This document shows, piece after piece, positions 12,553-33,634 of a stretch of DNA of 64,000 bases. Location of the stretch: contig NZ_RPDH01000002.1 of NCBI RefSeq assembly GCF_003813775.1, positions 1,736,001 through 1,800,000 of the forward strand, in the 5' to 3' direction. A program made the translations under genes and the position numbers. The stretch comes from Chitinophaga lutea. GTDB taxonomy: Bacteria; Bacteroidota; Bacteroidia; Chitinophagales; Chitinophagaceae. Below the pieces are notes generated by a model. It was not told the origin of the DNA. It worked only from the letters and a program-made list of their open reading frames with translations, and searched no databases. Numbering within the stretch: the first letter of the stretch is position 1; each line of letters starts with the position of its first letter.

Positions 12553-12951
12553 TCAGGCATGTTTCCGCAACTCCTCTGGGAGAAACTCGCAGGAGCCTGC
12601 GGTGTATGCGGCGTTGTTGCGGTGAATGTACTCTTTATGCGTATTGCCCCACTCCTCCAGCACATCAATCACCGGCAGCACGCTCTGACCGACCGTGGTA
12701 AAATGGTACTCCACCCGCGCAGGCACTTCGGCATAGATCTCTTTGTAAATCATCCCGTATTCTTCCAGTTCCTTCAGGTGGAGGTTGATGATGCGGGGAT
12801 TGACCTCCTGCATCTCACGATGAATGGCGCTCGGCCGCCGCACGCCGCGGCGGATGCAATCCATGATCCAGGCTTTCCATTTGCCGCCGATCACCTTGAT
12901 GGCTACCGCCAGCCCGCAATCCAGCATTTCGGGTATTTTCTTTTCGTACAT
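12553..12951 (-). CDS. HxlR-family transcriptional regulator
   Basis: A 132-aa winged-helix protein of the HxlR family (CGLAVAIKVIGGKWKAWIM, RRPSAIHREMQEVNPRIINL, VEYHFTTVGQSVLPV), paralogous to the one at 8.5 kb but not closely similar. It has Cys residues at CGLAV and CEFLP. It is convergent with the imine-reductase-like gene and lies just past the end of the large GH172 operon, from which it is probably transcribed separately: a perfect TATCTTTG element sits 18 bases before its ATG. Its target is not evident from position. Confidence 0.88.
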   Translation of the reverse strand: MYEKKIPEMLDCGLAVAIKVIGGKWKAWIMDCIRRGVRRPSAIHREMQEVNPRIINLHLKELEEYGMIYKEIYAEVPARVEYHFTTVGQSVLPVIDVLEEWGNTHKEYIHRNNAAYTAGSCEFLPEELRKHA

Positions 12952-12968
12952 GGTGGAAAGATTTCCTC

Positions 12969-12976
12969 CAAAGATA
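12969..12976 (-). promoter_or_regulatory. Bacteroidota -7 element (TATCTTTG)
   Basis: Exact TAnnTTTG match before the HxlR gene; no TTG was found at the normal distance upstream. Confidence 0.5.
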
Positions 12977-13029
12977 TAACCTAACAGGCAGGCCGGGCAT
13001 ACTGAAAAAATTATCCCTATGGCTTGCGG

Positions 13030-14421
13030 CTATTTAATTGCTACATCCCAGGAGTCTGTACGGAACGGAGACACCGGCAGCCCTTCCCCGCTGAAAAGAT
13101 TGCCCATGGCGGCATCCCTGAATCCGTAACGAACGGCTACAGGTGCTTTTACCATCGGGCTCGATACGGTGACCTGCTGGCCGCGGATGGAGATGGTGGC
13201 AGGATGGAATATTCTGTCCGGCCCGGCCATCAGCCATTCCGTCGCTACCGGTCCTTTTATTTTCAATCCCTTGTCGCCCGTGAATGTCACCACGGCTTTC
13301 TTCCCCTGTATGTCCATATTCCTGAAAACCGGGCTTTGGAACGGGATGCCCTGTTTGTGATACGTATTCACGAGGGCCATATTCGCGAGGCGCCATCCCA
13401 CATCATGTTTATTCGCCGGGTGAACGTTGTGGGTGTCGGCCACGAGGTCGGTAACGACCACCATCCCGGTTTTATGATGCGTGGCGCTTTGCAGCTGCGC
13501 CTCCCGCAGCAGGGCGCCTGTGTTTTTGAGGCGGTACACAAACGGCGCGATCTGCACGAAATAAAATGGCAGGTCCCTTTGCCAGGCATCGCGCCAGCTG
13601 TCGATCATCGCCGTGAATAAGCGGCGGTATGTGGAGGCCGCGCCGGTATTGTTCTCTCCCTGGTACCAGATGACGCCGGCAATGGCATAGTGGGTTACGG
13701 GCGCGATCATCGCGTTGAATGCGTATCCGGGCTCGTAGGGGCACATGCCGCTGGGCTCTATTTTTTTTGCCGCCTGCGCCAACACCGGGTCTTTGTGCAC
13801 GATGCCGCCCGGCGTCCAGATTTCCGCGGCGGTACCGCCCCAGCTGGCAGCAATGAGCCCAACGGGCACGTTGAGCTCTTTACTTAAACGTTTTCCGAAA
13901 AAATAGGCGACTGCGCTGAAAGACGGCAACGTGGCGCTGTCGCAGGCCGTCCATTGCCCTTCGCAGTTTTCCTGCGGGTAAGGAGCGGTTGTTTTCGGGA
14001 TGTGAAAAAAGCGGACGTTTTGCAGATGCGCCGTGGGCAGTTCCGCTTTGATATCCTGCAGCCCCCATTGCCCGCACATCTCCATATTGCTCTGCCCGGA
14101 GCAGATCCATACTTCCCCTACCATCACGTTGGTCAGCACGATCGTGTTTTTCCCTTTCAGGGTGATGGTGTGCGGGCCACCGGCCGCCGGCGTCGCGATG
14201 TTGATTTCCCAGCGGGCATCGCGGGAGCCGGTGGTTTCATATGTTTTTTTATCCCATGATGGCGTCAGGGTGATTTTTTCATGCGGATCCGCCCAGCCCC
14301 ATATTTTGACACTGTCGCGCTGCTGTAACACCATATTGCTGGCGATTACGGCCGGCAGGCGGATGTTGCCGCGGCTGCACAATGCGGCGCACATCAGGAT
14401 GATCAGACTAACTCCGCGCAT
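13030..14421 (-). CDS. Exported sialate O-acetylesterase-like SGNH hydrolase
   Basis: A 463-aa exported esterase. A short signal peptide (SLIILMCAALCSRG) is followed by a beta-sandwich start (LPAVIASNMVLQQRDSVKIWG). The SGNH core then has the nucleophile motif GEVWICSGQSNMEM, a further block GVIWYQGENNT, and a late HPANKHDVGWRLAN with the likely Asp/His pair. Such enzymes remove O-acetyl groups from sialic acids or plant and microbial glycans. It is the last gene of the 13-gene operon, starting 4 bases after the large GH172 gene. Here it probably deacetylates the same glycan that the GH172 enzymes cut; sialic acid need not be the substrate. Family call firm, substrate open. Confidence 0.9.
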   Translation of the reverse strand: MRGVSLIILMCAALCSRGNIRLPAVIASNMVLQQRDSVKIWGWADPHEKITLTPSWDKKTYETTGSRDARWEINIATPAAGGPHTITLKGKNTIVLTNVMVGEVWICSGQSNMEMCGQWGLQDIKAELPTAHLQNVRFFHIPKTTAPYPQENCEGQWTACDSATLPSFSAVAYFFGKRLSKELNVPVGLIAASWGGTAAEIWTPGGIVHKDPVLAQAAKKIEPSGMCPYEPGYAFNAMIAPVTHYAIAGVIWYQGENNTGAASTYRRLFTAMIDSWRDAWQRDLPFYFVQIAPFVYRLKNTGALLREAQLQSATHHKTGMVVVTDLVADTHNVHPANKHDVGWRLANMALVNTYHKQGIPFQSPVFRNMDIQGKKAVVTFTGDKGLKIKGPVATEWLMAGPDRIFHPATISIRGQQVTVSSPMVKAPVAVRYGFRDAAMGNLFSGEGLPVSPFRTDSWDVAIK

Positions 14422-14425
14422 GTAT

Positions 14426-16639
14426 TCATTTTAAAGTGGGAAGAATGTAACTGTACACGTCGTATTTCAGTTCGCTCCAAACGCTTTTGCGGGGGAAGGG
14501 ATGACCTGGGTACAGTTCCTGTGTATCGGGAACGAATTGGATTTTCACCCGGATGGCATCGCGCCCTTTTGTAAGCGAAGCGGGGATCAGGAACTCATCG
14601 TCACGGAAACGCCGGTTGGAGGTTTCGACTTTGTATTGCCGCGGCGCCAGTTCTCCCGGCGGCCGTGAAATCACATACGTGTTCGCGCCGGCCAGGTACC
14701 AGGTGCCCGCCTTCTGCCATTTGTCCGTTCCCGCCGGGGCAACGAATACTTCCGCCGTCTGGTTGGGATAACCGTAGTCGAGCGTCCGGCGTAACAGTGC
14801 GCCCAGGTTGTTTTTCCGGAGGCGGACGGTGAACTCTGAAGTACCCGTAGTCGTGCGCCCGTCTTCTTTATGCGCCGGGTAAATTTCCTTGCCGATCAAC
14901 TCCTTGTAACCCGGCCGTTTGGGCAGATCATATCCCCACGCGTGCGCGGGATAGGCATCCGGTCCCCATTCATATCTTGAAAGGATGGTATCTACAGCAG
15001 AAGCCTGGGGAGACGTATAATCATGCGCCTGTTCGTCGGCAATTTTGCCCACATCCAGCGAATCCGTTTTCACCAGCGATGGCGACGGCAGGCCGTACCA
15101 GTAACACACCGTTTCGTAATGTTCCTGCGCCACATTTTCATTATGCTCGAAGCGGATGACGGCGCGTTTTCCAAACGGCATCAGGTCGGCCAGCAGGAAG
15201 CGGTACGCGGATTGGATGAGGTCCTTGTCGTTGACGGCCGTTTTCTTTTCAGTAGACCCGCAGGGATGACCGGCGAGCGGAAGCGTCATGTTCTCCCCTC
15301 CCCAATAGTCGCCCCCGCCGGCCCATTCTTCGGTACCCGTGCCGTATGCCTGGGGTGTTTGACTATCGTCGAAGAAGAAGCGCGGGTCGCCTTCCAGCGT
15401 GCTCAGATTGGCGTTGTGCGAGAAAATGAAAGAAGTGCCCAGAAAGCTGCCGGACCATTCGGCGTGGCCCTCAGCACCCTGCGTATCGAGCCAGGTCATA
15501 TCCCTGCCCAGTTCCGGTTTCGGGATGTTTCGATAAGTGGCATGGAAATAAGCGCTCCGCGCCGCAGGCAGCCTCGAGCGTTCATACCGCACCTCATAGC
15601 CGATTTCCGTATCACCGGGACGAATATCCGTCAGTTCGAACCTGGCGGATTTGAAAAACGGCATCGGGTAATAACAGGCCAGCTCCACTTTATTGGCGGC
15701 ATAATCAAAACGGATATTGACAGGCAGCCCCTTCACGAGGTATGTTTTCTTTTCCCGGTTGAAAAAGGTACCGGCGCCGAAAAACAGGCATAACGGCGCG
15801 TCGATGGAAGGATGCGCCGCATCGTCCCAGGTCACCCGCAGCCGCACCCGCTCCAGCGTTTCCGCTTTATCCAGCGGCAGTGTCAGCTTTAAAGCTCTCA
15901 CCGCCGATGGGCCTGATTTGATTTCGCCCAGTGATACAACTTCTTTATCGAGCTTCACCCGGCCGCTGATCTTTTTGATGTTTTGCGGCGCAAAGTCCGT
16001 TCCGGCACGCTGCAAAAGTGCGGTAACGTCCTGATCGGGCGCTTGGCCGATATGCCAGCTGCGAAGCGGGGCAGACAAATCGTCCCTGTTCGCATACAGG
16101 TGATAAATGTAATACCCCGTTCCGTAAAACGTTCTCGAATAAGCGATCCGCATCGACTGTTGAAAACCCAGCGGCGCCCAGATGAGGTTGGCGCCTTTGG
16201 TGGTGCCCCACGTCCACGCAATCGGCTCCGGGAACGTTGCCGCCGGTATGAACGCCGTACCCTTGAACTTTTTGACGGCATCCACGGGATCGGCGGTGGC
16301 AGTTTCGGACACGATGTTATCCTTTCCATCCACCGTAAAATGCCAGGGGCTGCCATGCCAGTGATTGGCGCGGAAGAAATACAGCACGCCGGCGCCTTTC
16401 ACATCAAGCGTCACGTTTTCATCTTCCCTGTTCATAAACAGGAAATTCGACGCATCATAACCGCCGCCGTTACGCGCGTAAGTGCTGCGCATGTAAGCGC
16501 GTACGCCGATGCGCTGCAACGGTAACTGCTCCCATGCACGGAAAGCATCGTAGCCCATTGGAATTTTATGCTGCTGCGCGGGCGCATCCATCGCCGCACA
16601 ACAGCCTATCAGCAATAAAATCCGGAATATTCGAGTCAT
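14426..16639 (-). CDS. Large GH172 (DUF2961) glycosidase with C-terminal beta domain
   Basis: A 737-aa exported protein with a signal peptide ending near APAQQ. The DUF2961/GH172 jelly-roll region runs from about residue 40 to 430. It includes RSTYARNGGGYDASN, TLDVKGAGVLYFFRANHW, and the family hallmark AYGTGTEEWAGGGDYWGG, whose acidic residue after GTGT is the best candidate for part of the catalytic site. Residues ~430-737 add a beta-rich region. GH172 members studied elsewhere act on alpha-D-fructofuranosyl or alpha-D-arabinofuranosyl linkages. This is the longest of four GH172 proteins in the operon and has diverged strongly from the three ~390-aa copies, so it may cut a different bond. 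Confidence 0.85.
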   Translation of the reverse strand: MTRIFRILLLIGCCAAMDAPAQQHKIPMGYDAFRAWEQLPLQRIGVRAYMRSTYARNGGGYDASNFLFMNREDENVTLDVKGAGVLYFFRANHWHGSPWHFTVDGKDNIVSETATADPVDAVKKFKGTAFIPAATFPEPIAWTWGTTKGANLIWAPLGFQQSMRIAYSRTFYGTGYYIYHLYANRDDLSAPLRSWHIGQAPDQDVTALLQRAGTDFAPQNIKKISGRVKLDKEVVSLGEIKSGPSAVRALKLTLPLDKAETLERVRLRVTWDDAAHPSIDAPLCLFFGAGTFFNREKKTYLVKGLPVNIRFDYAANKVELACYYPMPFFKSARFELTDIRPGDTEIGYEVRYERSRLPAARSAYFHATYRNIPKPELGRDMTWLDTQGAEGHAEWSGSFLGTSFIFSHNANLSTLEGDPRFFFDDSQTPQAYGTGTEEWAGGGDYWGGENMTLPLAGHPCGSTEKKTAVNDKDLIQSAYRFLLADLMPFGKRAVIRFEHNENVAQEHYETVCYWYGLPSPSLVKTDSLDVGKIADEQAHDYTSPQASAVDTILSRYEWGPDAYPAHAWGYDLPKRPGYKELIGKEIYPAHKEDGRTTTGTSEFTVRLRKNNLGALLRRTLDYGYPNQTAEVFVAPAGTDKWQKAGTWYLAGANTYVISRPPGELAPRQYKVETSNRRFRDDEFLIPASLTKGRDAIRVKIQFVPDTQELYPGHPFPRKSVWSELKYDVYSYILPTLK

Positions 16640-16656
16640 GGTCTGTGCGTTTTAAT

Positions 16657-17616
16657 TCATTGTTGCTTTTTCCATTTGAGGGGGGCGAGATACAGCCCTT
16701 TTTTATCCCAGCCCGTATTCGTAATGAACCATCCTTCTTTTTCATCAAAAATCACTTCGGCAGCATGCACGGGCAATGTGCAAACGAGCTGCTCTATCGG
16801 GAAATGTTCCGGGTCTTTCGACCAATACACTGCCGTGAGGTTGTAAGCGGTCATCGCCTTGCAGATGAACAGGTAAAACAATCCGTCTTTGCGCACCACA
16901 AAAGGGCTTTCGGCATCGCCGCCCCAGTAGATCTCGTACGGCTGCACGTGCGCGATCTTTGGGCCGCTCCAGTGCAGCAAATCCGGGCTGGTGCGCACGG
17001 CCACGGCGGAACGGAGGTCGGTTTCGTTCACCACCCGCGTGTAATAGTAATAATACCGGTGGTTATATTGAAGGATGTAAGAATCCCGGGCATGCCCGGG
17101 ATCACTGAAGAGCGGGTTCCTGTCGTGCCGCTTCCAGTTAAAAAGATCTTTGCTCGTGGCGAGCCGCAGTTGCCCCCACGAAGCATATTCAGGCGCATTT
17201 TTCTGCATATTGCCGGTATTGTAAAACATGTAATACGTTCCCTTTTCCCGGATCACGTGGGGCGCCCACAACACCCGCTCCTCCCCGCGCCGGGCGCTCA
17301 TGGCATACCCGTGATCTTCCCATTTGGCCTGGCGGATGGAAGTTGCCGAAGCGTGAAAGAACCGTGTTTCATCCCAGGGCCGTACGGGCAAATGATGGAT
17401 GATACCATACGCATGCCAGCTGCCGTCGGCGCCTTTGATCAAAGTATGGTCATTCGTGTACCAGGCGCTGTCCCCTTCCTTGCGGGTGTCGTTCGGGTTG
17501 AAGATGTGCGTAAAGGGGCCGCTGATCTCCGGAACGAGATAAGGAACGGTTTGCGCGTTTACTTCCGAACAAGCGCACAGGATGCTGATCAACAAAAAAA
17601 TATACCTGTTGTGCAT
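16657..17616 (-). CDS. Exported five-bladed beta-propeller glycoside hydrolase-like protein (GH43/GH32/GH117 clan-like)
   Basis: A 319-aa protein with a leader that could be a lipoprotein signal (SILCACSEV). The repeated propeller blades are visible: YTNDHTLIKGADGSWHAYGI, ERVLWAPHVIREKGTYYMFY, LRLATSKDLFNWKRH, DSYILQYNHRYYYYYTR and DAESPFVVRKDGLFYLFICK. Acidic residues near DHT, WAPH and ESPF occupy the places where GH43/GH32-type enzymes carry their three catalytic carboxylates. It probably cleaves an arabinofuranosyl, xylosyl or fructosyl unit from the operon's substrate. The position between HisD-like and GH172 genes supports this. The fold is confident; the exact family needs profile searching. 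Confidence 0.75.
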   Translation of the reverse strand: MHNRYIFLLISILCACSEVNAQTVPYLVPEISGPFTHIFNPNDTRKEGDSAWYTNDHTLIKGADGSWHAYGIIHHLPVRPWDETRFFHASATSIRQAKWEDHGYAMSARRGEERVLWAPHVIREKGTYYMFYNTGNMQKNAPEYASWGQLRLATSKDLFNWKRHDRNPLFSDPGHARDSYILQYNHRYYYYYTRVVNETDLRSAVAVRTSPDLLHWSGPKIAHVQPYEIYWGGDAESPFVVRKDGLFYLFICKAMTAYNLTAVYWSKDPEHFPIEQLVCTLPVHAAEVIFDEKEGWFITNTGWDKKGLYLAPLKWKKQQ

Positions 17617-17622
17617 GGCCGC

Positions 17623-18915
17623 TTATTTTTCGCCGACGGTTTCTTTCTGATAACGTTTTACCCGCAGGGCCGCCTGCTCTCGGTGGCCGGCAAACCCTTC
17701 CAGGTCGCAGAGGCGCATGGCATATTCACCGATCGTTACGCTGGCTTCGGGTGTGCAGCGCTGGTAAGTGCAGTTCTTCAGAAACTTGCCCACCCACAGG
17801 CCGCCGGTGTAACGGGCTGCTTTCATCGTGGGCAGCGTATGGTTCGTGCCGATCACTTTGTCGCCGTACGCCACATTGGTTTCCGGGCCGAGGAAAAGCG
17901 CGCCGTAATTGGTCATATTGTCGAGAAAATACTGCGGGTCTTTCGTCAGTACTTCCACATGCTCGCAAGCCAGCGCATCGGCCTCCCGGAGCGCCTCTTC
18001 CAGGTCGTCCACGATCATCACGGTACCGCATTCGTCCCAGGCCACGCGGGCAATATCGGCGGTGGACAAGGTTTTCAGCTGCCGCTGAATTTCCGCCAAT
18101 GTACCGGCGGCCAGTTCGGCCGAGGTGGTGATGAGTGTTGCCGGTGAAGTGGGGCCATGTTCCGCCTGCCCTAACAGGTCGCAGGCCACCATTTCCGCAT
18201 CGGCGGTTTCATCGGCGATCACCAGTATTTCGGTGGGCCCGGCAAACAGGTCGATGCCCACGCGGCCGAACAATTGCCGTTTTGCTTCGGCCACATACGC
18301 GTTGCCCGGCCCCACGATCATATCCACCGCGGCCATCGACGGGGTACCGATCGCCATGGCGCACATGGCCTGCACGCCACCCAGGATATAGATTTCGTCC
18401 GCGCCCGCAAAATGCATGGCGCACACCGTGGCTTCAGGGATTTTGCCGTTGATGGGCGGCGTACAGGCGATGACCCTTTTTACGCCGGCTACCCGCGCGG
18501 TGAGCACGCTCATATGCGCGGAGGCCACCATCGGGTAGCGCCCGCCCGGAATGTAACAGCCCACACTGTTAACGGGAATATTTTTATGCCCGAGAAATAC
18601 GCCGGGCAATGTTTCTATTTCGATGTCCAGAATGGAAGCGCGCTGCTGCTCCGCGAAAAAGCGGATCTGCTGCTGCGCAAAACGGATGTCGTCTTTCACC
18701 TGTTGCGGCGTGCGGTCCACGATCTCCCTGATCTGACCGTCCGTCAGCCGGAAAGATTCGGGCAACCAGTTATCGAACGACGCGGCGAACCTGCGCACGG
18801 CGGCATCGCCTTCCTCTTCCACGGCTTTGATCATATCCGCCACGGTTTTCCTGGTATCCGCATCTGCGTTCCTGATATCGGATTCGCTTTTCCCTTTTTT
18901 CAAATACCTGCTCAT
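17623..18915 (-). CDS. HisD-family NAD-dependent dehydrogenase, probably catabolic
   Basis: A 430-aa cytoplasmic homologue of histidinol dehydrogenase. Family landmarks are kept: [41 protein letters not shown], the zinc ligands in LLGQAEHGP (Gln, His), the catalytic Glu-His in CEHVEVL, the Asp ligand in [14 protein letters not shown] and a late His in [13 protein letters not shown]. It should therefore oxidise a primary alcohol to an acid in two NAD steps using zinc. No other histidine gene is near, and the gene is embedded in a sugar-utilisation operon. Catabolic HisD homologues such as sulfopropanediol dehydrogenase (HpsN) are known, so the substrate here is probably a polyol, amino-polyol or sugar alcohol released from the imported glycoside. 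It would be wrong to name it hisD. Confidence 0.85.
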
Positions 18916-18959
18916 TGGTTTGATTTAATCGCCCGGAGGCTTGGTTAACTTTTTTATGA

Positions 18960-20126
18960 TTAATTCCCCCATAAGGCGGGATCGTTTCCTTTACTTTTTC
19001 GCCATTCGTTCCGCCACCGGTGAATGTCTGCCGGCCCTATCAGCGGCCGCGGCCTGCGGGCCGCCGCATCCGGGATAGCGGGTATCCGTGATGCGACGGA
19101 CTGGTACCAGTAAGCCACGCTGGCCAGGTCGAGGGTCAGCACATTCATGCTGCCATGCTCGATGGTGAAGCGGAAGGAGTCATCGAAATAAACCGGGTCC
19201 TGGATATGGAAACGGTAGATGTGCGTTCTGCCCAAAAAGCCTTTTTCACCGTTCACTTTGGGATAACCGAAATAAGGCGTGGAATACGGCGCCTGCGGCG
19301 CGCCCCAGGATGTGTTGAAATAATCTTCGGTACCGGTGCCATGCAGAGCAGGCAGTTCCCCGCCGTCGATGAATATCATGTCGTCTCCTTCCCCATACCA
19401 GTATGGCGTGGGCGAATGCACATAGTAGTTCACGCCGGCGAAATGCCCCTTTCCCTTGATATCTGCGATGAGATAGTTGTGCCGTCCGTTTTTATTGGGT
19501 TTGCCCGGCCCGAACATCCAGTGCTCATTCTCTACACTGTCTTCCGCAGCGGTCAGCTCCCGGTTGTACCAGGCGTGGAAGCGACCGGTATTCGGGGGCA
19601 GCTGCTTCATCTCCGCGTAGTCGATATAGAAGTACAGGGTACTGATTTCGGTGGCCGACTGGTTCTCTATTGCTATCCTTGCCCCGTTCGAAAACGGCAT
19701 CGCAAAATAGCAGACCAGTCCCATGCCGTTGGCCGGCGTTGCCGCCAGCGGAGCGGATGTAAAAAGATAGGTATCGTTCCAGCCCTGGCCGAAGAAGGGG
19801 CCGATGGGCGACTGCACGGAAGGGAAATCATTGCCGTCCCAGTACATGCTGATGACCACATCGTTCCGGCTGAGTTTATCCGGCTCCGGCCCCATCGTGA
19901 TCCAGATATGCTGGATGATGCCCGCGCCTTTCACGTCGAAGATCGTCCGCTTCCCGCCGGGCGCGATGCGCCGGAGGTTGTCGTGATTATCGCCCGAGCG
20001 GTCGTAACTGCTGACACGCCTGGAACGCACGTTCTCACGGATGCGCGTCAGGTCCGTCATCTCCTGCGCAATGGATTGCACGGAGCATAGGATGCATACA
20101 ACGATATAGCAGAAAGTTCTTTTCAT
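18960..20126 (-). CDS. GH172 (DUF2961) glycosidase, copy A of a tandem pair
   Basis: A 388-aa exported protein (signal peptide ending IVVCILCSVQSIAQ). It is a compact single-domain DUF2961/GH172 enzyme: SRRVSSYDRSG, FDVKGAGIIQHIWITM, PIGPFFGQGWND, GEGDDMIFIDGGELPALHG and the signature GTGTEDYFN. It is clearly paralogous to the next gene upstream, with matching C-termini (RWRNEWRKSKGNDP-LWGN). Predicted activity is on furanosyl linkages such as alpha-D-arabinofuranose or alpha-D-fructofuranose, as for characterised GH172 members. GH172 proteins act as oligomers, so the two tandem copies could form mixed assemblies. It lies 10 bases after copy B and 44 bases before the HisD-like gene. Confidence 0.88.
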   Translation of the reverse strand: MKRTFCYIVVCILCSVQSIAQEMTDLTRIRENVRSRRVSSYDRSGDNHDNLRRIAPGGKRTIFDVKGAGIIQHIWITMGPEPDKLSRNDVVISMYWDGNDFPSVQSPIGPFFGQGWNDTYLFTSAPLAATPANGMGLVCYFAMPFSNGARIAIENQSATEISTLYFYIDYAEMKQLPPNTGRFHAWYNRELTAAEDSVENEHWMFGPGKPNKNGRHNYLIADIKGKGHFAGVNYYVHSPTPYWYGEGDDMIFIDGGELPALHGTGTEDYFNTSWGAPQAPYSTPYFGYPKVNGEKGFLGRTHIYRFHIQDPVYFDDSFRFTIEHGSMNVLTLDLASVAYWYQSVASRIPAIPDAAARRPRPLIGPADIHRWRNEWRKSKGNDPALWGN

Positions 20127-20136
20127 AACCAGCTAA

Positions 20137-21309: not shown

Positions 21310-21316
21310 GTGTCTT

Positions 21317-24666: not shown

Positions 24667-24674
24667 ATAGTCGG

Positions 24675-25484: not shown

Positions 25485-25503
25485 GTTATCTTGATTTTAT
25501 GAG

Positions 25504-27357
25504 TTAATTCGTTTGAGTGACTGCGGCCTCTTCCATTTCTACACCGGCAGCAGCCGTATTATCCGCCGCCCTTCGGGCGAGCACCGCCAGGTATCGTTGC
25601 GCCATTTTCCAGAAAATGATGAAGCTGATCACCGCCGCCGCGATGGTCCATACGCCGGTGAGATACCGCGCGAACCATGCATGGGTAAGCCCCAGCATCA
25701 GCATCGATACGGACGCGGTTCCGATGATGGCGATGAATATCCCGCGGAAGACCAGTTTGAATGAACCGGCACTGCCTGGCTGATCAAGGTGCTGATAGGG
25801 CGTCCAGCAGCCGAGCGGATGCGCGCGGAGGTAGAACTTCCGCAGCAGTTCGTCGGGATCCGGTTTGGTGAGCAGCGCAACGGCGACCCATAATACCGTG
25901 GTCAGCCCCATCACCAGCAGCGTTTGCCAGTACCAGGCGATGTTCAGGCTATCCGCCCAGGGCACGCCCAGGAATGCCAGCAGTTTCGGCCCCAGCACCA
26001 CGAGGCAGAATATGGCGGCGCCGCCGAAAGAAGCCGCTACGCGGGCGGGGCCGTTAAAGCGCCACCACCACCACTGCGCCCAGTTGGCGGGCAGTTCCGC
26101 CGCACTGAGCGACAGCATAAATATGGCCACGTCGGTGATGATGAGCACATTGAATACTACCGCGACAGATAATGCGAGGATGATGATCATACCCACTTTT
26201 CCCATCAGCATGTAATGACTTTCTTTTGCTTTGGGCACGAACCAGCGGCGGTAGATATCGCTCACCAGCACCTGGCTGCCGAAGTTGAGGTTATCGCCAA
26301 CGGTCGACATCGTAGCCGCCAGCATCGCCGCCACCATCAATCCCATCGCGCCCACGGGCAGCAGTGTTTTCATCAGCCGCCCGTATACCAGTTCCCTGTC
26401 CGCATCGATCTGCCGCAGTTCCGGCCACATCACCGCCGCGCTGATGCTCGGCAGCGTAACCAGCAGCAGCAGGAGGAACATACTGATAGCCGCCACCACG
26501 TACATGGTCAATGCTTCAGAGGGTGTGCGCGTGGAGAGGATGCGTTGCCCTTCCATGGCTCCGCCCATCGGGGCCGCATCTCCGCCGTAGCCGATGCTCT
26601 GGCCCAGCAGCCATCCCAGTGCGGCGGCCAGCGGGAACACGGCATGATTCTCCGGGGGCACGGAGCCGAGTATTTCGGCACCTGCAGGGCCGAATTGTGC
26701 ACGAATGGCGGTCACCATCGCCTCCGCGCCGCCGAAGTGTTCCAGCGTGAGCCAGGCCAGCATCAGCGTGCCTGCCAGGAAAATGATCATCTGGATAAAA
26801 TTGGAGATCACCACGCCTTTATAACCCGAAGAGAATACGAACAGCAGCGAGATCGGCACTACCAGGCAAAGCGTTTGCAGTTTGGTGAGGTCGAATGCCG
26901 GCCCCATGATCTTGCAGGCTGCCAGCAGTGTAATGCCCGTCCATGCCGGCATCGCCACCATCGATGTACGGATGGCTATCCAGAGCCGCATGGCGGCGGC
27001 CGCTCCCTTCGGGAAGCGCAGGTCATAAAATTCAAGCGAGGTGAACAGGTTCAGGCGCCGCCAGAAAACGGCGAACAATACGCCGCCGAGAAAGAGCGCG
27101 AGGCCGAACCGGCTCAGGTACCACCAGCAGATGAAACCGCCGGTGGCCACGGCGAGGCCGCCGTAGCCCGTGGCCGCATCCGGACTTACCAGCGCGGCCG
27201 TATAGGAAATACCGTTCAGCCAGCCGGGAATTTTCCGGCCGCCGAGAAAGAAGTTGTCCATGCTTTTGTTCGCGAAACGGCGGTGCCAGAAGCCGGTGCC
27301 GAGCATCAGCAAAATGTAAACCACTACGATCCAGATGTCTATTTGATGCCAGTTCAT
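25504..27357 (-). CDS. Sodium:solute symporter (SSS family)
   Basis: A 617-aa inner-membrane protein with ~14 hydrophobic segments. It begins WIVVVYILLMLGTGFWHRRF and GGRKIPGWLNGISYTAALVS, the usual SSS first and second helices with the Na+-site region. AMLAATMSTVGDNLNFGSQVLVSDIYR is the characteristic SSS helix-8 block. It would couple Na+ entry to uptake of a sugar or related small molecule into the cytoplasm. It lies third-to-fourth in the operon after SusC, SusD and the first GH172 gene, which fits import of the product released in the periplasm. Substrate not predictable from sequence alone. Confidence 0.9.
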   Translation of the reverse strand: MNWHQIDIWIVVVYILLMLGTGFWHRRFANKSMDNFFLGGRKIPGWLNGISYTAALVSPDAATGYGGLAVATGGFICWWYLSRFGLALFLGGVLFAVFWRRLNLFTSLEFYDLRFPKGAAAAMRLWIAIRTSMVAMPAWTGITLLAACKIMGPAFDLTKLQTLCLVVPISLLFVFSSGYKGVVISNFIQMIIFLAGTLMLAWLTLEHFGGAEAMVTAIRAQFGPAGAEILGSVPPENHAVFPLAAALGWLLGQSIGYGGDAAPMGGAMEGQRILSTRTPSEALTMYVVAAISMFLLLLLVTLPSISAAVMWPELRQIDADRELVYGRLMKTLLPVGAMGLMVAAMLAATMSTVGDNLNFGSQVLVSDIYRRWFVPKAKESHYMLMGKVGMIIILALSVAVVFNVLIITDVAIFMLSLSAAELPANWAQWWWWRFNGPARVAASFGGAAIFCLVVLGPKLLAFLGVPWADSLNIAWYWQTLLVMGLTTVLWVAVALLTKPDPDELLRKFYLRAHPLGCWTPYQHLDQPGSAGSFKLVFRGIFIAIIGTASVSMLMLGLTHAWFARYLTGVWTIAAAVISFIIFWKMAQRYLAVLARRAADNTAAAGVEMEEAAVTQTN

Positions 27358-27376
27358 ATGTGACGATGCCTGTTGA

Positions 27377-28585
27377 TCAGAGAATGCCTTTTAAACGTTG
27401 CGCCAGCGGGGCCAGCGGCGGCAGGTTATTCTGCGGTTTATTGAGGTAGAAATAAGCCGTGGCGGAATAATGATCCACCCTGTAAAAATTCACCCACTCA
27501 TCTGCCGGAAAACGGTCGTCCGTATAATCCGGGTAGTTGGGCTCTTCCAGCAGTTTCACGAGGCCCTGCTGCGTCATCACGGAGATGGGCTTCACTTTCC
27601 CGCCGGCTTTTGCAATGGCCCTGATTTTATCTCTTCCGCCGCCGCCCATTTCCTGTATGGTCACTTTGCACGACGACTGGAAGTACACGGGGTCAGGGAT
27701 GTGATAACGGTAAAAGGCGTACTGCCCCTTTTGTTTATCGACAACCGGCGCGCCCTGGTACAGCTGCGCGAAAGGGCCGAGGTTCCAGGCGGAGCCTACG
27801 TAATCTTCCGTACCGGTGCCCGCGAGCGTAGGATGTTCCTTATCCCCGTCGAGGTACATTTTTACTTCGCCTTCACCGAACCAGGTATCACCGTAAATCC
27901 TATCCGGCACGATGCTGAGATTGGTTCCCAGGAAACGCCCTCTCCCGCTCACTTCCGGCAGTATTTCAAAATCCTCGCCCAGCTGATTGTTGTCGCTGCT
28001 GTTCCAGTATGCGTGGAAGTAGGCGATATTATCCGGGTGTTTTTTCACTTTGGTGAGGTTCACATCGAAGAACAGCAGCTGGTTATGTTTTGACTCGTTC
28101 ACAAAAACGATCTTCGCATGTTTTTTAAACGGCATGGGAATAACACAGTTGAAGGATTTGCCTTCCGGATCGGAGAACAGCGCGTTTTGAAACGGCGTTC
28201 TCCTGCCGAGACCGATGCCGAAGAAATCGCCCAGCGGTACCGCCACGGCCGGCTTTTCGGCCCCGTCCCAATACATTTCGATGTAGATGGAACGGAGCGA
28301 CGCCGGGCTTCTTTCGATGATGGTCATCCAGATGCGGTTGATCGTGCCCGCGCCTTCGTAATCCATCATCACCTTCCGTTCGCCCGGTTTCACCCATTCC
28401 GCAGCGCGCCCTTTCGCGCCTTTATTTTCCATCCCACCTTTCCCTTTCGCGCCGGTCGGGTTTTCGAGGCTGATCCATTGTGTTTCCGTGCCGGCAGGCA
28501 ATTCGAACAGCTGCTGGGCAGTGGCCGCTGCCGGTAAAAGGCAGCATAACAATAGCAGCTTGCCTGCATTACATAATCTGATCAT
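27377..28585 (-). CDS. GH172 (DUF2961) glycosidase directly after SusD
   Basis: A 402-aa exported GH172 protein (signal ending CLLPAAATAQ). It has ETQWISLENPTGAKGKGGM, VMMDYEGAGTINRIWMTI, VAVPLGDFFGIGLGR, WFGEGEVKMYLDGDKEHPTL and the signature LAGTGTEDYVGSAWNLG. The start is of the large DUF2961 subgroup that opens with a Gly/Lys-rich loop and differs clearly from the tandem A/B copies. Being directly after SusD, it is probably the first enzyme to meet the captured substrate at the outer membrane or in the periplasm. Spacing is 24 bases to SusD and 19 to the symporter. Confidence 0.88.
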   Translation of the reverse strand: MIRLCNAGKLLLLCCLLPAAATAQQLFELPAGTETQWISLENPTGAKGKGGMENKGAKGRAAEWVKPGERKVMMDYEGAGTINRIWMTIIERSPASLRSIYIEMYWDGAEKPAVAVPLGDFFGIGLGRRTPFQNALFSDPEGKSFNCVIPMPFKKHAKIVFVNESKHNQLLFFDVNLTKVKKHPDNIAYFHAYWNSSDNNQLGEDFEILPEVSGRGRFLGTNLSIVPDRIYGDTWFGEGEVKMYLDGDKEHPTLAGTGTEDYVGSAWNLGPFAQLYQGAPVVDKQKGQYAFYRYHIPDPVYFQSSCKVTIQEMGGGGRDKIRAIAKAGGKVKPISVMTQQGLVKLLEEPNYPDYTDDRFPADEWVNFYRVDHYSATAYFYLNKPQNNLPPLAPLAQRLKGIL

Positions 28586-28609
28586 TCGTACGTTGTTGTT
28601 TGATGATAT

Positions 28610-30445
28610 TTACCAGCCGGGATTCTGTACCAGCTTCCGGTTTTTCTCGAGTTCGCGCTGCTGTATGGGCCAGAGGTAATGTTTCTTCTCGAACACTCTT
28701 TTTTCCATCACCCTCCGGGCGTAAAATGCATTGCTGGAAATATTGTACCCGTCCATCAGCACATCGATGCCGTAAATATTGCCGTTATCGGTGGTTTCCG
28801 CGGTTTTCCAGCGGTGCGTATCAAAATAGCGGTGTGTTTCAAATGCCAGTTCTATCCTTCTTTCGTGGCGGATCCTTTCGCGCATATCGGCCTGCGACAA
28901 CCCCGTGGGCAATCCCGGCAGCCCGGCGCGCTCACGTATCAGGTTCACATACTTGTACACGTCCGCCACGGGGCCCTGCGCTTCGTTCAATGCTTCGGCG
29001 TAGTTGAGGTACTGTTCGCCGAGGCGGAAAAACACCCAGGTGCGGATGGGGCCCGCTTTCGGTTGCATGACGTAAAAGGGGTTCGTCAGTTTCCTCATAA
29101 GATACCCCGTTTCGCTGAAATTTGCACCGGCATCGAACGGCCTTCCATCCAGCCCGCCTTTCCAGAACTGCAGCGGCGTAACCCTGTTCTGCGGAGCGCC
29201 CGTCTTGAATTTCGCGCCGGTGAAGCTGATGCTGGCATAAAAGCGGGGCTCCCTGCCTACATACATGCCCCGTGTACCCGCGTAATAATAATCGGTGGCG
29301 GCAGGCGCCTGTGTGCTTTCGTTGTACGCGGATGCCGGGTTGACAATGGGTGTCAGGTTGGCGTTATATCCCAGGATGGGGCGGGTGCCATCAGCCATTT
29401 CATAATCGTCCACGATGTTCTGTGTGGCGGCCTGCAGGGGCCAGTTGGCGCCGGGCATGCCGCGGGGCTCGCTGTATGCGTCGATGTTGAGGTAACCGGG
29501 ATCGTTGCTCGTAAAAAACACCTCGTCGTTGAAGTTGACGTAAAATATTTCACTGTAGTTCTTCACCGGGTTACTGCCGGAGCGGTGCAATTTATGCCCG
29601 GCGGATTCGGCCAGGTCGATGCAGGCTTTGGCGGCGGTGGCGGCATCCTGCCACCGCGTCGGCACGGCGTCAGGGAACAGGCGTACCCCGTCTTTATCTT
29701 TGAAAGCCGCATAATCCGGGTTGCCGTTCCAGAGCGGGCTGGCCATATACAGCAGCACCCTTGCCTTCAGCGCCGCGCAGGTTGCCTTGGAAGGCTTTCC
29801 GTAGTCGGTGGTCGCCGTTACCCGTGCGGGGAGCAACGCAGCCGCTTTATCGCATTCGGCAACGATGAACTCCACGCATTTTTCAATCGGCTGCCGTTTG
29901 AACGCCACCAGGTCTTCATCGAGCAGCAGCGTTCTATCGATGACCGGCACGGGACCGTACACGCGGATGAGGAAAAAATGATTGAGCGCGCGCAGGAAAA
30001 GCGCCTCCCCTTTCCAGTTACTGATACGGTCGGCCGAGGCCAGCTCCGAAGGCGCGAGTCTGTCGATATTTTCGAGGAAGATGTTGGCTTTACGAATGGC
30101 GAAATAGCTGTGCGACCAGATATCCTGCACATATGAATCCGCATTCCAGTTCCCGTTGTTCATCGCATTGCTGAAATTCGGCTCATGCCCGATCTCCAGC
30201 TCGTCAGAAGCAGCGTTGAACACGTTATTCGGGGCGCAGCCGTTGCAGGGATTATCCACCATCGCCAGCTCTTTCGGGAGGTGGGAATAGATATTGGCCA
30301 GGAATTGTTCGGCAAATACAGGATTGGTAAACACCTGCTCCTGCGTCAGATCTTCATCCGGTGTTTTCTCCAGGTAGTCCTTTGAACACGACGGCGCTAC
30401 CAGCAGGAACACAGTCGCGAGCACGGGGATGATATATGATTTCAT
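28610..30445 (-). CDS. SusD/RagB-family outer-membrane lipoprotein
   Basis: A 611-aa surface glycan-binding lipoprotein with lipobox VAPSC (mature N-terminal Cys ~20). SusD hallmarks are KDYLEKTPDEDLTQEQVF, FLANIYSHLP, helical TPR-like repeats (RKANIFLENID, ALFLRALNHFFLIRVYGPVP) and the C-terminal RIRHERRIELAFETHRYFD block. It forms a lid over the SusC barrel, catching the glycan and passing it on. It starts 21 bases after susC. Binding residues cannot be deduced, but Trp and Tyr are frequent in the central region. Confidence 0.95.
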   Translation of the reverse strand: MKSYIIPVLATVFLLVAPSCSKDYLEKTPDEDLTQEQVFTNPVFAEQFLANIYSHLPKELAMVDNPCNGCAPNNVFNAASDELEIGHEPNFSNAMNNGNWNADSYVQDIWSHSYFAIRKANIFLENIDRLAPSELASADRISNWKGEALFLRALNHFFLIRVYGPVPVIDRTLLLDEDLVAFKRQPIEKCVEFIVAECDKAAALLPARVTATTDYGKPSKATCAALKARVLLYMASPLWNGNPDYAAFKDKDGVRLFPDAVPTRWQDAATAAKACIDLAESAGHKLHRSGSNPVKNYSEIFYVNFNDEVFFTSNDPGYLNIDAYSEPRGMPGANWPLQAATQNIVDDYEMADGTRPILGYNANLTPIVNPASAYNESTQAPAATDYYYAGTRGMYVGREPRFYASISFTGAKFKTGAPQNRVTPLQFWKGGLDGRPFDAGANFSETGYLMRKLTNPFYVMQPKAGPIRTWVFFRLGEQYLNYAEALNEAQGPVADVYKYVNLIRERAGLPGLPTGLSQADMRERIRHERRIELAFETHRYFDTHRWKTAETTDNGNIYGIDVLMDGYNISSNAFYARRVMEKRVFEKKHYLWPIQQRELEKNRKLVQNPGW

Positions 30446-30466
30446 GATACCAGTTTTTTTGATTGA

Positions 30467-33400
30467 CTAAAAATTAGCTTCCAGCCCGAAGTTGTAGTTG
30501 CGGGGGATGGGATAACCGCCCGTGCCGAAATCGGATTCCGGGTCGATGACCTTGATCTTGTCCCAGGTGGCGAGGTTCGTTCCCTGTATAAATACCCGCA
30601 CGCTTTTGAGCGACGCTTTTTTGGTGACGTTGACAGGGATGGTGTAACCGATCTCCGCGTTTTTGATCCGCAGGTAGTCGCCGCTCCGCTGCCAGAGCGT
30701 GGAACCGGTGTAATTGTTGGTACTGCCCGCCCGCACTGCCGGGAATTCCGCATGGGCGTTGTTGCCGCCCACGACAAACCGTTTGTCGTACACCTGCTGC
30801 ATCACGTTGTAATAACCGGCCTGTCCGGAGAAAGCCCAGGCCGTCCAGCCCTGCGTGAAAAAGAAGTCGCGGCGTGCCGCGCCGGTGAAAAAGATGGTGG
30901 CGTCGAAACCTTTCCAGGCCGCAGTAGCACCGAAGCCGTACATGATCTGCGGTTCTGTGCCGTAGCTGCCGATGATGGTACGGTCGGCCGTGGTGATCTT
31001 GCCGTCTTTGTTGATGTCCTCGTATTTGATATCGCCGGGGCGGATAACCGACTGGAGGGCCGTTTGCGAGGGACTGTTGTCGATGTCGCGCTGGTCCTGG
31101 AAAAACCCGAGCGCGCGGTAACCGAGGTTGGAGCCGATGGCGCTGCCCCTGAAATCCTGGTAGGGATACAATGCCGGCGGCGCGTCGTTTTCGATGATGG
31201 TATTTTTCGCGAAAGTGAAGTTGCCGGTGAAGGAATAATACAATCCTTTTTTAGTGGTGTTGCGGAGCTGGAGGTTCGCTTCAAATCCCTTGTTCTCGGT
31301 AATGCCCACGTTGCCGAAAGGTACGGTGCCCGGCGGGTAACCGGCATAGATCGGGATGGTCCTGCGCTCGAGCAACTGCCCGTCGCGGCGTTCGTGGAAA
31401 AGGGTGGAAGATAGCACCACTTTCCCGTTGAACATTTCCAGGTCGAATCCCAGATCTGTTTTGTATGCGGTTTCCCAGGTTACGTTCACGTTCCCGATGC
31501 GCGCTTCGCTTTTGCCGCCGGGGTTCGTATTCTGATCGATGCCGAACACGTATCCCCCTGCCGATTTATTGTACGTGCTCAGGTAGAGGAAACGGGCGCC
31601 GCCGATGCGGTCGTTCCCCACGATCCCGTAGTTACCGCGCAGTTTCAGCAAACTGATCACGTTCCTGTTCCAGAATTTTTCGCCCGATACGATCCAGCCG
31701 GCGCCGATGGCCGGGAAGAACCCGTAGCGTTTGCCTTTCGGGAAATTTTCAGAACCGTTATAACCCGCGCTCAGCTGCAGGAGGTAACGGTAATCGTAGT
31801 TGTAGGTTACCCTGCCGATGAGGCCCTGCCGCCTTTCGGGCAGGTTCTGCACGGAATTGCCGGCGTTGACGTTGGTGAATTCCCGCCTTTCCGCCGTGAG
31901 CATGCCCGTTACCTGGTGCGCACCGAAAGAACGCTCATAGTCCACGCCCACCTGCCCGTACATGGTTCTGTAGGTTTCGTTGCGGTTCTCGAAGCCCAGC
32001 GGGGTTTCGGTGGACCATTGTTTGTAAGTTTCCACGCCCGTTACCGGATCTTTCGCATAAGAATAGGTAGCCGGTGATTTGCGCCGGATGTTCTGCGTGA
32101 TGTCCACCACGTCGAACGCCACGAGGCCGCGGGCGGACAGGCCTTTGGTGATGTACGAAAGGTCCCACTTCGCCGAAAGGTTGCTCACCAGGGTGTTATA
32201 GAATTGTTTGGTATAGCCCGTTTGTGTCACCAGTGCGTACGGGTTCAGCAGCAGGTCGCCGAAAGCGCCCGGCTGGCTGCCGTTCGGGTTTTTCACCGGG
32301 TAAGTGTTCGGTGCGGTGAGTTTCAGGTTGGCCAGGATGTTACCCGCATCCCTGCCCGGAAAATTGGTGTTGGAAATGATGCCCGACAGCCCTAATGCCA
32401 ATGAAAATCTTTTGCTGAGTTTCACGTCCACGTTCGACCGGAAATTGTAGCGTTTCAGCGCCGCGTTGGTTTTGTAGCTGTTGGCCGGGTCTTCGTTGTA
32501 GATGCCTTCCTGAATGGTGTAACCGAGGTTGAGGTAATATTTTACCACCTCCGTACCGCCCGATACGCCGAGGTTATTGATGAGCTGGCGTGTTCTTTTT
32601 TTCAGCACCACGTCGTACCAGTTCACGTTGGGATACATGTACGGGTCGGAGCCGTCTTTGTACTTCTGGATTTCCGCGTCGGTGAATTTCGGCCGCTCTC
32701 CTACGTTGGTCAACGCTTCATTGTGAAGCAGCGCATATTCGTACCCGTCGATATTGTCTTCGATGCGCATCGGCACCACGATGGCCGCTTCCGAACGGAA
32801 GGTGATATTCGGTTTGCCCACCGTGCCTTTCCGCGTGGTGATCATGATCACGCCGTTGGCGCCCCTGTTGCCGTACACGGCGGTGGAAGCCGCGTCTTTC
32901 AGTACGGAGAAACTTTCTATTTCCTGGATGTTCATCGTCGTCCAGTAATCCTGCAGTTCACGTTCCACACCATCCACGATGATCAGTGGTTTGTTGGTGC
33001 CGCTTTGCGACACGAGCCCGCGGATGAATACTTTCGCCGCGTCGTAGCCCGGTTCGCCGGAGGTCTGCCGTGTGATGATGCCTGCGAGTTTACCGCCGAT
33101 CGCGTTGGTCAGCGAAGGTGTGGCGTATTTCTGTATCTCCCTGGCGGATACGGACGATACGGCGCCCACCATCGTGATCTTTTTCTGGGTACCGTAGCCT
33201 ACTACCTGTACCTCGTTGAGTTTGCGGCTTTCTTCGTCCGGCGCCAGCTTGATCGTCATTGTTTTTTGCGCGCCCACCTTTACGGTAGTGTTGTAATAAC
33301 CGAGAAAGCTGAAGATGAGGGAGTCTTCCTCACGCGCCACTTCGATCATGAACTTGCCGTTCATATCGGTGGTAACGCCTGTTTGGGTGCCCTTCACCCG

Positions 33401-33634
33401 TACCGACGCCCCGGGCAGGGCCTCGTCGTTTTCGTTGAACACCGTTCCGGACACAACGAATGAGCGCTGTTGCATGGCTGCGGTTGTTGTGGTGCTACCC
33501 GTCTTTGCGGCCGCCGGTGTCATAAAAAAGATGAGCAGTAAAGATGTGGTGATGCTGGCGGCAGCGATGCGCCGGCCGCCGGAGATTTGTCCGAACAAAA
33601 GATCGGTGAACCTGAATCCCGTAGAGAATTGCAT
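30467..33634 (-). CDS. SusC/RagA-family TonB-dependent outer-membrane transporter
   Basis: A 1055-aa protein. The ATG at 33634 is chosen because a signal-anchor (SITTSLLLIFFMTPAAA) follows and the longer open frame to 33739 is leader sequence. Domains: carboxypeptidase-regulatory-like beta-sandwich (~57-140, VSGTVFNENDEALPGASV), TonB-box region (LNEVQVVGYGTQKK), plug (~160-270, with LIIVDGVERE and the SusC motif YGNRGANGVIMITTRKG), then a 22-strand barrel ending in Phe (NFGLEANF). It imports oligosaccharides using TonB energy. It is the first gene of the 13-gene operon. A ~210-base leader with a LacI-type palindrome and a hairpin lies upstream. Confidence 0.95.
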   Translation of the reverse strand: MQFSTGFRFTDLLFGQISGGRRIAAASITTSLLLIFFMTPAAAKTGSTTTTAAMQQRSFVVSGTVFNENDEALPGASVRVKGTQTGVTTDMNGKFMIEVAREEDSLIFSFLGYYNTTVKVGAQKTMTIKLAPDEESRKLNEVQVVGYGTQKKITMVGAVSSVSAREIQKYATPSLTNAIGGKLAGIITRQTSGEPGYDAAKVFIRGLVSQSGTNKPLIIVDGVERELQDYWTTMNIQEIESFSVLKDAASTAVYGNRGANGVIMITTRKGTVGKPNITFRSEAAIVVPMRIEDNIDGYEYALLHNEALTNVGERPKFTDAEIQKYKDGSDPYMYPNVNWYDVVLKKRTRQLINNLGVSGGTEVVKYYLNLGYTIQEGIYNEDPANSYKTNAALKRYNFRSNVDVKLSKRFSLALGLSGIISNTNFPGRDAGNILANLKLTAPNTYPVKNPNGSQPGAFGDLLLNPYALVTQTGYTKQFYNTLVSNLSAKWDLSYITKGLSARGLVAFDVVDITQNIRRKSPATYSYAKDPVTGVETYKQWSTETPLGFENRNETYRTMYGQVGVDYERSFGAHQVTGMLTAERREFTNVNAGNSVQNLPERRQGLIGRVTYNYDYRYLLQLSAGYNGSENFPKGKRYGFFPAIGAGWIVSGEKFWNRNVISLLKLRGNYGIVGNDRIGGARFLYLSTYNKSAGGYVFGIDQNTNPGGKSEARIGNVNVTWETAYKTDLGFDLEMFNGKVVLSSTLFHERRDGQLLERRTIPIYAGYPPGTVPFGNVGITENKGFEANLQLRNTTKKGLYYSFTGNFTFAKNTIIENDAPPALYPYQDFRGSAIGSNLGYRALGFFQDQRDIDNSPSQTALQSVIRPGDIKYEDINKDGKITTADRTIIGSYGTEPQIMYGFGATAAWKGFDATIFFTGAARRDFFFTQGWTAWAFSGQAGYYNVMQQVYDKRFVVGGNNAHAEFPAVRAGSTNNYTGSTLWQRSGDYLRIKNAEIGYTIPVNVTKKASLKSVRVFIQGTNLATWDKIKVIDPESDFGTGGYPIPRNYNFGLEANF

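Follow-up and report, generated by a model that had tools for sequence, protein, structure and literature searches.

Why would a glycan-uptake operon with four GH172-type proteins carry a gene of the histidinol dehydrogenase family? The question is raised by a locus of Chitinophaga lutea (contig NZ_RPDH01000002.1, positions 1,736,001 to 1,800,000, a stretch of 64,000 nucleotides referred to here as the window), in which thirteen minus-strand open reading frames (ORFs) run from 33739 to 13030 within a genome of 6.6 Mb. We consider it probable, if not strongly so, that the locus is a LacI-controlled SusC/SusD operon which uses a glycan of the alpha-D-arabinofuranoside type and ends in a four-electron oxidation of a diol to a hydroxyacid, and that it contains a portable cassette of a LacI-type regulator, its operator and an HpsN-like dehydrogenase, here called HisD*. 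As judged from sequence, this cassette appears to be common to two phyla and to have been built into a GH172 glycan operon in one of them. Its elements in the window are as follows.

17623 to 18915, minus strand: HisD*, HpsN-like member of the histidinol dehydrogenase family, 430 amino acids (PF00815, 460 bits, cut-off 27; motifs GRYPM and GDKVIGTNH)
33846 to 33859, no strand assigned: candidate LacI operator, the exact palindrome TGAATACGTATTCA, sole exact site in the 6.6-Mb genome
33884 to 34888, minus strand: lacI-type regulator gene, 334 amino acids (PF00356, PF13377)
34926 to 34939, no strand assigned: second operator-like site upstream of lacI, degenerate, with 2 mismatches

The preliminary description of this DNA had recognised a HisD-family dehydrogenase. 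The family assignment stands, also by TIGR00069 (458 bits, cut-off 243.8; Pfam calls on window proteins were judged against curated cut-offs), but the protein is not of the HisD type. HpsN, the 3-dehydrogenase of R-2,3-dihydroxypropane-1-sulfonate (R-DHPS), is likewise filed under PF00815, and according to passages of its published characterisation it has the motif G-R-Y-A/S-H where HisD has G-S-A-P-L, and binds the sulfonate through His126 and Lys353 (PMC11382572). HisD* has neither GSAPL nor GRY[AS]H, and because GRYPM takes their place it is by motif neither HisD nor HpsN. Its best solved relatives are HpsN structures, which score 377 bits where the best HisD reaches 259; it aligns along the length of HpsN, including the EH region, and GDKVIGTNH falls on GDKTSGPNH of HpsN, i.e. 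the equivalent of Lys353 is kept. Of 151 relatives the 80 best were retained as loci, and all 80 have both GRYPM and GDKVIGTNH; four further loci share GDKVIGTNH and read GRYPM (L120-L122) or GTYAM (L119). Thus Met in place of the HpsN His, together with the Lys, is conserved in 84 of 84 relatives, the window protein not counted.

The retained Lys suggests that the substrate of HisD* has an anionic arm, while loss of the His126 equivalent argues against a sulfonate. That HisD* is a sulfopropanediol dehydrogenase and that the locus uses a sulfonate-bearing glycoside would accord with its closest solved relatives, with the kept Lys and with some sources, which name relatives sulfopropanediol 3-dehydrogenase. 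We regard it as very improbable, as the residue corresponding to the sulfonate-binding His126 of the published account (PMC11382572, in part) is Met in every HisD* examined, and no sulfolyase was recognised among the thirteen genes, the rest of the genome not having been searched for one. Activity on DHPS was rejected on the same replacement. A role in the histidine pathway was rejected too: a second copy, the likely gene for that pathway, lies elsewhere in the genome, in a locus with hisB- and hisC-like ORFs by eye, and reads GTAPL, a HisD-like motif, and GDYASGTNH. The HisD* clade is uncharacterised, and databases name its members histidinol or sulfopropanediol dehydrogenase. The closest rows are from Chitinophaga, with 89% identity to C. 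rupis. In even samples of the phyla HisD* is rare, being found in 5 of 395 Bacteroidota genomes, that of C. lutea included, and among 299 Bacillota genomes three give matches in its range, namely the centre itself and two that reach only 50-52% identity.

With what, then, does this dehydrogenase travel? The 80 loci comprise 24 from Bacteroidota and 56 others; ORFs were called greedily, so clusters may miss genes, and absences among the neighbours mean little because only chosen genes were scanned with Pfam. Among the 56 non-Bacteroidota loci the cluster of the window LacI is present in 47, a GntP-like permease in 29, an SDR protein in 30 and a 3HCDH-type dehydrogenase in 27, the families being those of Pfam-scanned representatives. 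LacI proteins encoded no more than two genes from HisD* have a mean identity of 47% to the window LacI (29-58%, 44 hits); of eight more distant ones six show 24-41%, and those of L049 (59%) and L010 (67%) look orthologous. The lacI gene beside HisD* in L119 (5864-9535, genome G086) appears as two fragments separated by IS21-type transposase genes and looks interrupted. Co-occurrence of GH172, HisD-like and SSS genes, which had been put forward as a check on the locus, does recur in Bacteroidota, but the widest partner of HisD* is LacI with its operator and not GH172.

The candidate operator was found by a scan of the upstream regions in many HisD* loci and before the window SusC, as a palindrome of 14 bp, TGMATACGTATKCA. 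In the non-Bacteroidota genomes searched, those of 30 of the 56 loci, it is present in 28, with 48 sites against 3 for the reversed control, and 46 of the 48 lie at most 1.9 kb upstream of HisD*; this presence is partly built in, because the same loci supplied the consensus, and its weight as support for the cassette is reduced to that extent. Not built in are the rarity of TGMATACGTATKCA elsewhere in the same genomes and its presence in Bacteroidota, where 23 genomes hold 12 exact sites and the reversed control gives 1. The two outlying sites are in L113, near Fe-ADH/ALDH-type genes, and in L114 (Paenibacillus agricola, position 5166), where an exact site that is not at HisD* stands just upstream of an Fe-ADH/ALDH-type operon, a possible regulon member. 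In the C. lutea genome TGMATACGTATKCA occurs exactly once, at 33846-33859 of the window in front of SusC; two more sites have one mismatch, against one for the reversed control, and one of these (G000:C1:2193196, L089) lies close to a SusC-type gene and to a LacI-type gene whose product has 29% identity with the window LacI.

At first sight the regulator is scarce in Bacteroidota, with LacI in just 1 of 24 locus stretches, because most loci end before lacI; a genome-wide search corrects this count. In 11 of the 14 genomes with the GH172 gene set described below (13 and that of L047) there is a LacI orthologue of 67-93% identity, and of these 11 seven have an exact site and four a site with one mismatch. 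In 10 of the 11 the sites adjoin lacI or SusC by their coordinates, and in G020 site and lacI are on different contigs. Allowing two mismatches in the seven remaining genomes was uninformative (45-117 sites each, control 30-64); for four of these the lacI and SusC flanks were read directly, the other three being without a LacI orthologue at E <= 1e-60. Exact or one-mismatch equivalents of the degenerate site at 34926 flank lacI in relatives. The LacI-type control proposed earlier is thus supported, now with a candidate operator, TGAATACGTATTCA, at which the window LacI would act.

In the window lacI lies directly upstream of SusC on the same strand, and the operon that follows, in the order of transcription and with HisD* between GH172c and the GH43-like gene, consists of these further genes.

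30467 to 33634 (ORF open to 33739), minus strand: SusC-type TonB-dependent transporter (PF13715, CarbopepD_reg_2; PF07715, Plug)
28610 to 30445, minus strand: SusD-type lipoprotein (PF07980, PF14322)
27377 to 28585, minus strand: GH172a, 402 amino acids (PF11175, 233 bits; both catalytic Glu columns kept)
25504 to 27357, minus strand: SSF/SSS-type symporter, 617 amino acids (PF00474, 102 bits)
24675 to 25484, minus strand: GAT, GATase1_like protein, 269 amino acids (PF07090, 181 bits; PDB 2gk3, E 5e-31)
23446 to 24666, minus strand: CER, predicted neutral-ceramidase fold, 406 amino acids, no signal peptide by eye
21317 to 23449, minus strand: 710-amino-acid protein, predicted N-terminal domain and (alpha/alpha)6-type barrel
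20137 to 21309, minus strand: GH172b, 390 amino acids (PF11175, 272 bits; PDB 4kq7, E 3e-166; 8ah3, E 1.5e-164)
18960 to 20126, minus strand: GH172c, 388 amino acids (PF11175, 273 bits; PDB 4kq7, E 9e-157; 8ah3, E 9e-149)
16657 to 17616, minus strand: GH43-like protein, 319 amino acids (PF04616, 42 bits, cut-off 32.2)
14426 to 16639, minus strand: GH172d, long GH172, 737 amino acids (PF11175, 141 bits; both catalytic Glu columns kept)
13030 to 14421, minus strand: SASA-type carbohydrate esterase, 463 amino acids (PF03629, 73 bits, cut-off 24.8)

ORFs and Pfam bear out thirteen same-strand genes with SusC and SusD at their head, adjacent as in SusC/SusD glycan-uptake loci, and the symporter and amidotransferase-like protein were rightly named; the GH43-like and 710-amino-acid proteins had gone without mention. 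Read from the 3' end the intergenic gaps are 4, 17, 6, 44, 10, 7, -4, 8, 19, 19, 24 and 21 bases, so the range of 4-44 bases given before holds for all but the single 4-base overlap of CER and the 710-amino-acid gene, and the true range is -4 to 44. We presume that the thirteen genes are co-transcribed. Promoter and terminator scans, which covered 12500-32400 only, gave no or only slight excess over shuffles and were not used. The SusC gene probably starts at 33634, Met36 of the longer ORF from 33739, because the homologue in C. cymbidii is an ORF of 1057 amino acids. Signal peptides, read by eye on the translations and not with a predictor, are apparently present in the GH172 proteins, the GH43-like, 710-amino-acid and SASA proteins, SusD and SusC, and apparently absent from HisD*, CER and GAT. 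This agrees with the earlier picture of a SusC/SusD glycan locus with secreted-type glycosidases and a cytoplasmic-type dehydrogenase. Outside the unit defined by the operator, a protein of the PF00144 Beta-lactamase family and a GH43 protein are encoded upstream of lacI on the same strand (35022-37398), and another SusC/SusD pair, with a DUF5689 protein after it, occupies 57656-63981.

Which sugar would such an operon release? All four GH172 proteins match DUF2961/PF11175 with 141-273 bits (cut-off 27) and are of three types, as had been noted, because GH172b and GH172c are 61% identical while GH172a and GH172d have only 31% and 26% identity to GH172c. E246 and E267 (GH172c numbering) are invariant in all four and correspond, via the alignment of GH172b with 7v1v, to E270 and E291 of alphaFFase1, its catalytic Glu residues according to the part of the source at hand (PMC8605356); the Asp adjoining the nucleophile is Glu in GH172d. 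Among solved structures 8ah3 is matched with 551 bits by GH172b and 499 bits by GH172c, and alphaFFase1 with 162 and 182 bits. The 8ah3 entry is labelled DG02479, and we take it to be DgGH172c (HMPREF9455_02479) of the D-arabinan locus of Dysgonomonas gadei. DgGH172c cleaves pNP-alpha-D-Araf, arabinan, arabinogalactan and lipoarabinomannan, as stated in the available part of its description (PMC10115798). Since GH172b/c are far nearer to 8ah3 than to the fructofuranoside enzyme, the furanose target of the preliminary description can be sharpened: D-arabinofuranosides rather than D-fructofuranosides are the better guess, and GH172b/c would be alpha-D-arabinofuranosidases, while a sialylated, O-acetylated or amide-bearing glycan stays conjectural. 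An ordinary fructan locus is disfavoured by the same structure matches. We also think it improbable, at slightly better odds than a sulfonate substrate, that the GH172 proteins act like alphaFFase1, the founding enzyme, on alpha-D-fructofuranosides or difructose anhydrides (DFAs) in a system for fructan by-products: GH172b/c do still match alphaFFase1, but 8ah3 about three times more strongly in bits, Pfam finds no GH32 domain in the thirteen genes, and BACUNI_00161, the top match of GH172b/c, is argued in passages of PMC8605356 not to be a DFA I enzyme. A fifth GH172 protein is encoded far off in the genome (G000:C2:1073077-1073817; DUF2961, 336.5 bits, above any GH172 of the operon).

CER had been called ceramidase-like; its match to the Pfam ceramidase family is below the cut-off (20.1 against 32.1 bits), yet its model, from an alignment of 43 of the best 120 listed matches, three proteins from the loci and the window protein, predicts the fold of neutral ceramidase. 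The solved bacterial neutral ceramidase chain has 646 amino acids, CER only 406 and no signal peptide by eye, and the alignment of the two covers the THTH region and a C-terminal part only, the segment of the catalytic Ser lying outside it. We read GDINP of CER, by eye, as presumably placing Asn where neutral ceramidase has its catalytic Ser. The 710-amino-acid protein has no Pfam family over the cut-off, and its model, from an alignment of 47 of the best 120 listed matches and the window protein, predicts an N-terminal domain followed by an (alpha/alpha)6-type barrel, for which a GH76-like glycosidase with an adjacent Asp pair was considered as a candidate. The fold searches do not speak against families that they did not list.

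Might the core target then not be a D-arabinofuranoside at all? The neutral amide or lactone of a hydroxy-acid could be imported by the SSF symporter, opened by CER and oxidised by HisD*, for instance from 3,4-dihydroxybutanoate to malate, while the GH172 proteins only strip decorating furanoses from its glycosides. We consider this rather unlikely, although it would account for SSF, a CER-like protein and HisD* occurring without recognised GH172 in L059, in L047 (a short contig) and in L119 (over about 9 kb and on opposite strands). The GntP-like permeases, SDR and 3HCDH-type proteins that Bacillota often have instead would suit it too, as would the Lar_N protein near HisD* in L056, a weak match (26.7 bits, cut-off 23.3), and malate needs no further dedicated enzyme, which is consistent with a single-operon regulon. 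We know of no such compound as part of a common glycan, however; an amidase or lactonase activity of CER is conjectural, and the GH172 set goes with one HisD* clade, which suggests that furanosides matter.

How firm is that association? GAT, the 710-amino-acid protein and GH172d are encoded beside HisD* in 13 of the 24 Bacteroidota HisD* loci, from Chitinophaga, Pedobacter, Flavitalea, Niabella and Mucilaginibacter, and 12 of the 13 preserve the order SSF-GAT-CER-710; in the other, L013 (Pedobacter sp. V48), which has a contig end nearby, SSF was not seen and CER, between GAT and the 710-amino-acid gene, is in two ORFs of 199 and 200 amino acids, perhaps by a frameshift or an assembly fault. 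Members of the SASA cluster are present in 12, GH172d in 13 and GH43-like proteins in 7 of the 24. Sister operons contain extra glycosidases, of GH123 type in L015 (the cluster also in L018 and L022), GH43 in L018 (the cluster also in L016 and L017) and GH116 in L018. The HisD* proteins of the 13 loci and the window form one clade of 14 rows (support 98/98), with L047 outside. This clade belongs to Bacteroidota, of whose rows 26 share a group of 44 (99/95) with 18 others, by name Bacillota except L029, whose record is titled Pseudomonas. If L047 is given the GH172-set label, the tree needs two changes of it, and one change suffices in 30% of 200 bootstrap trees. GH172d is rare in the even sample, being found at E <= 1e-60 in 1 of the 395 Bacteroidota genomes, that of C. 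lutea.

Taken together, we favour the following course of events. The GH172 enzymes would strip furanose residues, most likely alpha-D-arabinofuranosyl, outside the inner membrane, assisted by the GH43-like protein, the (alpha/alpha)6-barrel protein and the esterase. SusC/SusD and then the SSF symporter would import the product, to be processed in the cytoplasm by GAT, CER and HisD*. HisD* may oxidise a -CHOH-CH2OH end to -CHOH-COOH with two NAD+, like HpsN and HisD but on another substrate, which probably has a carboxylate or keto-acid arm held by the kept Lys; this substrate or a close relative would be the inducer sensed by LacI, here and in Bacillota. First candidates are 2-keto-3-deoxypentonate and 3,4-dihydroxybutanoate, because by structural reasoning each could form a six-membered zinc chelate as DHPS and histidinol do. 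The neighbours of HisD* outside the GH172 set are compatible with a 2-hydroxyacid as product and with substrates akin to sugar acids: MR_MLE (enolase-superfamily) proteins occur near it in L039/L061/L082 (one cluster, scanned in L061 only), L059 and L119, an RraA-like aldolase and amidohydrolases in L059, the weakly matched Lar_N protein in L056, an FAD-oxidase_C/FeS protein in L119, and SDR and FAA_hydrolase proteins in L120. In L120 and L122 HisD* stands beside SDR and FAD_binding_3 proteins, with a glyoxalase/dioxygenase-superfamily protein in L120 and, in L122, a gluconolactonase-like and a GH3 protein; here the clade is put to another use.

A more specific form of this course, which we hold only tentatively, is an oxidative route in which D-arabinose passes through D-arabinonate to 2-keto-3-deoxypentonate, 4-hydroxy-2-oxoglutarate arises through oxidation of C5 by HisD* (unless HisD* acts ahead of the dehydratase), and pyruvate and glyoxylate are then formed by an aldolase. 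A dehydrogenase-hydrolase branch that starts from 2-keto-3-deoxypentonate is known, with a hydrolase of the FAH type. It is such a branch, described in the part of PMC6336799 available, that the SDR and FAA_hydrolase genes of L120 recall, and the MR_MLE proteins and RraA-like aldolase of the other loci would also suit the route. Moreover, PF02952, the fucose/D-arabinose-type isomerase family, has no member in the C. lutea genome in a search that was positive in 3 of the 14 genomes, while a predicted fucose isomerase is among the proteins that D. gadei makes on D-arabinan, by the part of PMC10115798 at hand. The route would, on the other hand, demand a dehydrogenase, a lactonase and a dehydratase, none of which was recognised among the thirteen genes; the genome has no second exact operator site, and the search did not extend to D-arabinose isomerases of other families.

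Several observations weigh against the arabinofuranoside operon with its shared cassette. Within the operon, Pfam recognises in the thirteen genes no enzyme that would turn D-arabinose into an obvious substrate for HisD*. Among solved structures GH172b/c match the uncharacterised 4kq7 best, slightly above 8ah3, and they score only 103-106 bits with 8ic8, another characterised exo-alpha-D-arabinofuranosidase. DUF4185/GH183 has no match in the thirteen genes or the whole genome, in a search whose positive control matched nowhere. L010 keeps the gene set with GH172d as the only GH172 found in the stretch, and L047, a short contig of a Segetibacter metagenome-assembled genome, shows only SSF-CER-HisD*; because both lack recognised GH172b/c, HisD* need not depend on the sugar that these release. 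As to the cassette, G007, G009 and G010 have neither a LacI orthologue at E <= 1e-60 nor an exact site, and have a divergent gene beside HisD*, of a cluster whose member in L059 is of AraC type. The 26 Bacteroidota rows are held together with a support of 86/90 only, and L120-L122, also Bacteroidota, fall outside the group of 44. Finally, HisD* of L120 also adjoins genes resembling aromatic catabolism, and L025 has a GH127 gene near HisD* on the other strand; because of such neighbours we commit ourselves to a type of reaction only. It is in our view a serious possibility, at somewhat less than an even chance, that the histidinol dehydrogenase family has in HisD* a third type of enzyme, which oxidises a carboxylated diol (e.g. 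a 3-deoxy sugar acid) by four electrons with NAD and opens an undescribed catabolic pathway, and that the cassette it forms with LacI and operator crossed between Bacillota and Bacteroidota, retained its DNA-binding specificity and entered a GH172 locus a single time.

What is new in this picture? A SusC/SusD glycan locus is in itself of a known kind; the novelty lies in HisD* as a clade of its own, in the palindrome and in its presence in more than one phylum, and searches of the open-access literature found neither the clade nor the operator nor the gene combination described, in agreement with the preliminary description, to which the combination was not familiar. The HisD* clade is linked in two phyla with a 14-bp palindrome and a probable repressor, in a cassette that is small in Bacillota and built into a glycan operon in Bacteroidota, and because the sensor is common to both, an inducer found in one phylum predicts the substrate in the other. 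The conserved 710-amino-acid barrel protein and the ceramidase-fold protein of cytoplasmic type are candidates for enzymes. Compared with known systems, HisD* shares its Pfam and TIGRFAM family with HisD and is a separate paralogue beside the HisD-like copy of the same genome. With HpsN it shares the family, and some HisD* genes adjoin an SDR gene much as HpsN is found near HpsO of PF13561 in the part of the account available (PMC11382572); it differs in motif and in its company, which is LacI and a GntP-like permease or SSF and GH172. The nearest glycan system is PUL42 of D. gadei, a polysaccharide utilization locus for D-arabinan with GH172 and GH183 enzymes, compared here on passages of its published description (PMC10115798) and not on its sequence or gene list. 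Of its three GH172 genes one encodes, provided that 8ah3 is DgGH172c, a protein with strong similarity to GH172b/c. Relative to PUL42, the genome of the operon is without the PF02952 isomerase and gives no match to DUF4185 (with a silent control), and the operon adds HisD*, CER, GAT, the 710-amino-acid protein and SSF. We suggest that this GH172 locus of several soil genera may target glycans of a D-arabinan-like kind and do so in the absence of the fucose-type isomerase known from D. gadei.

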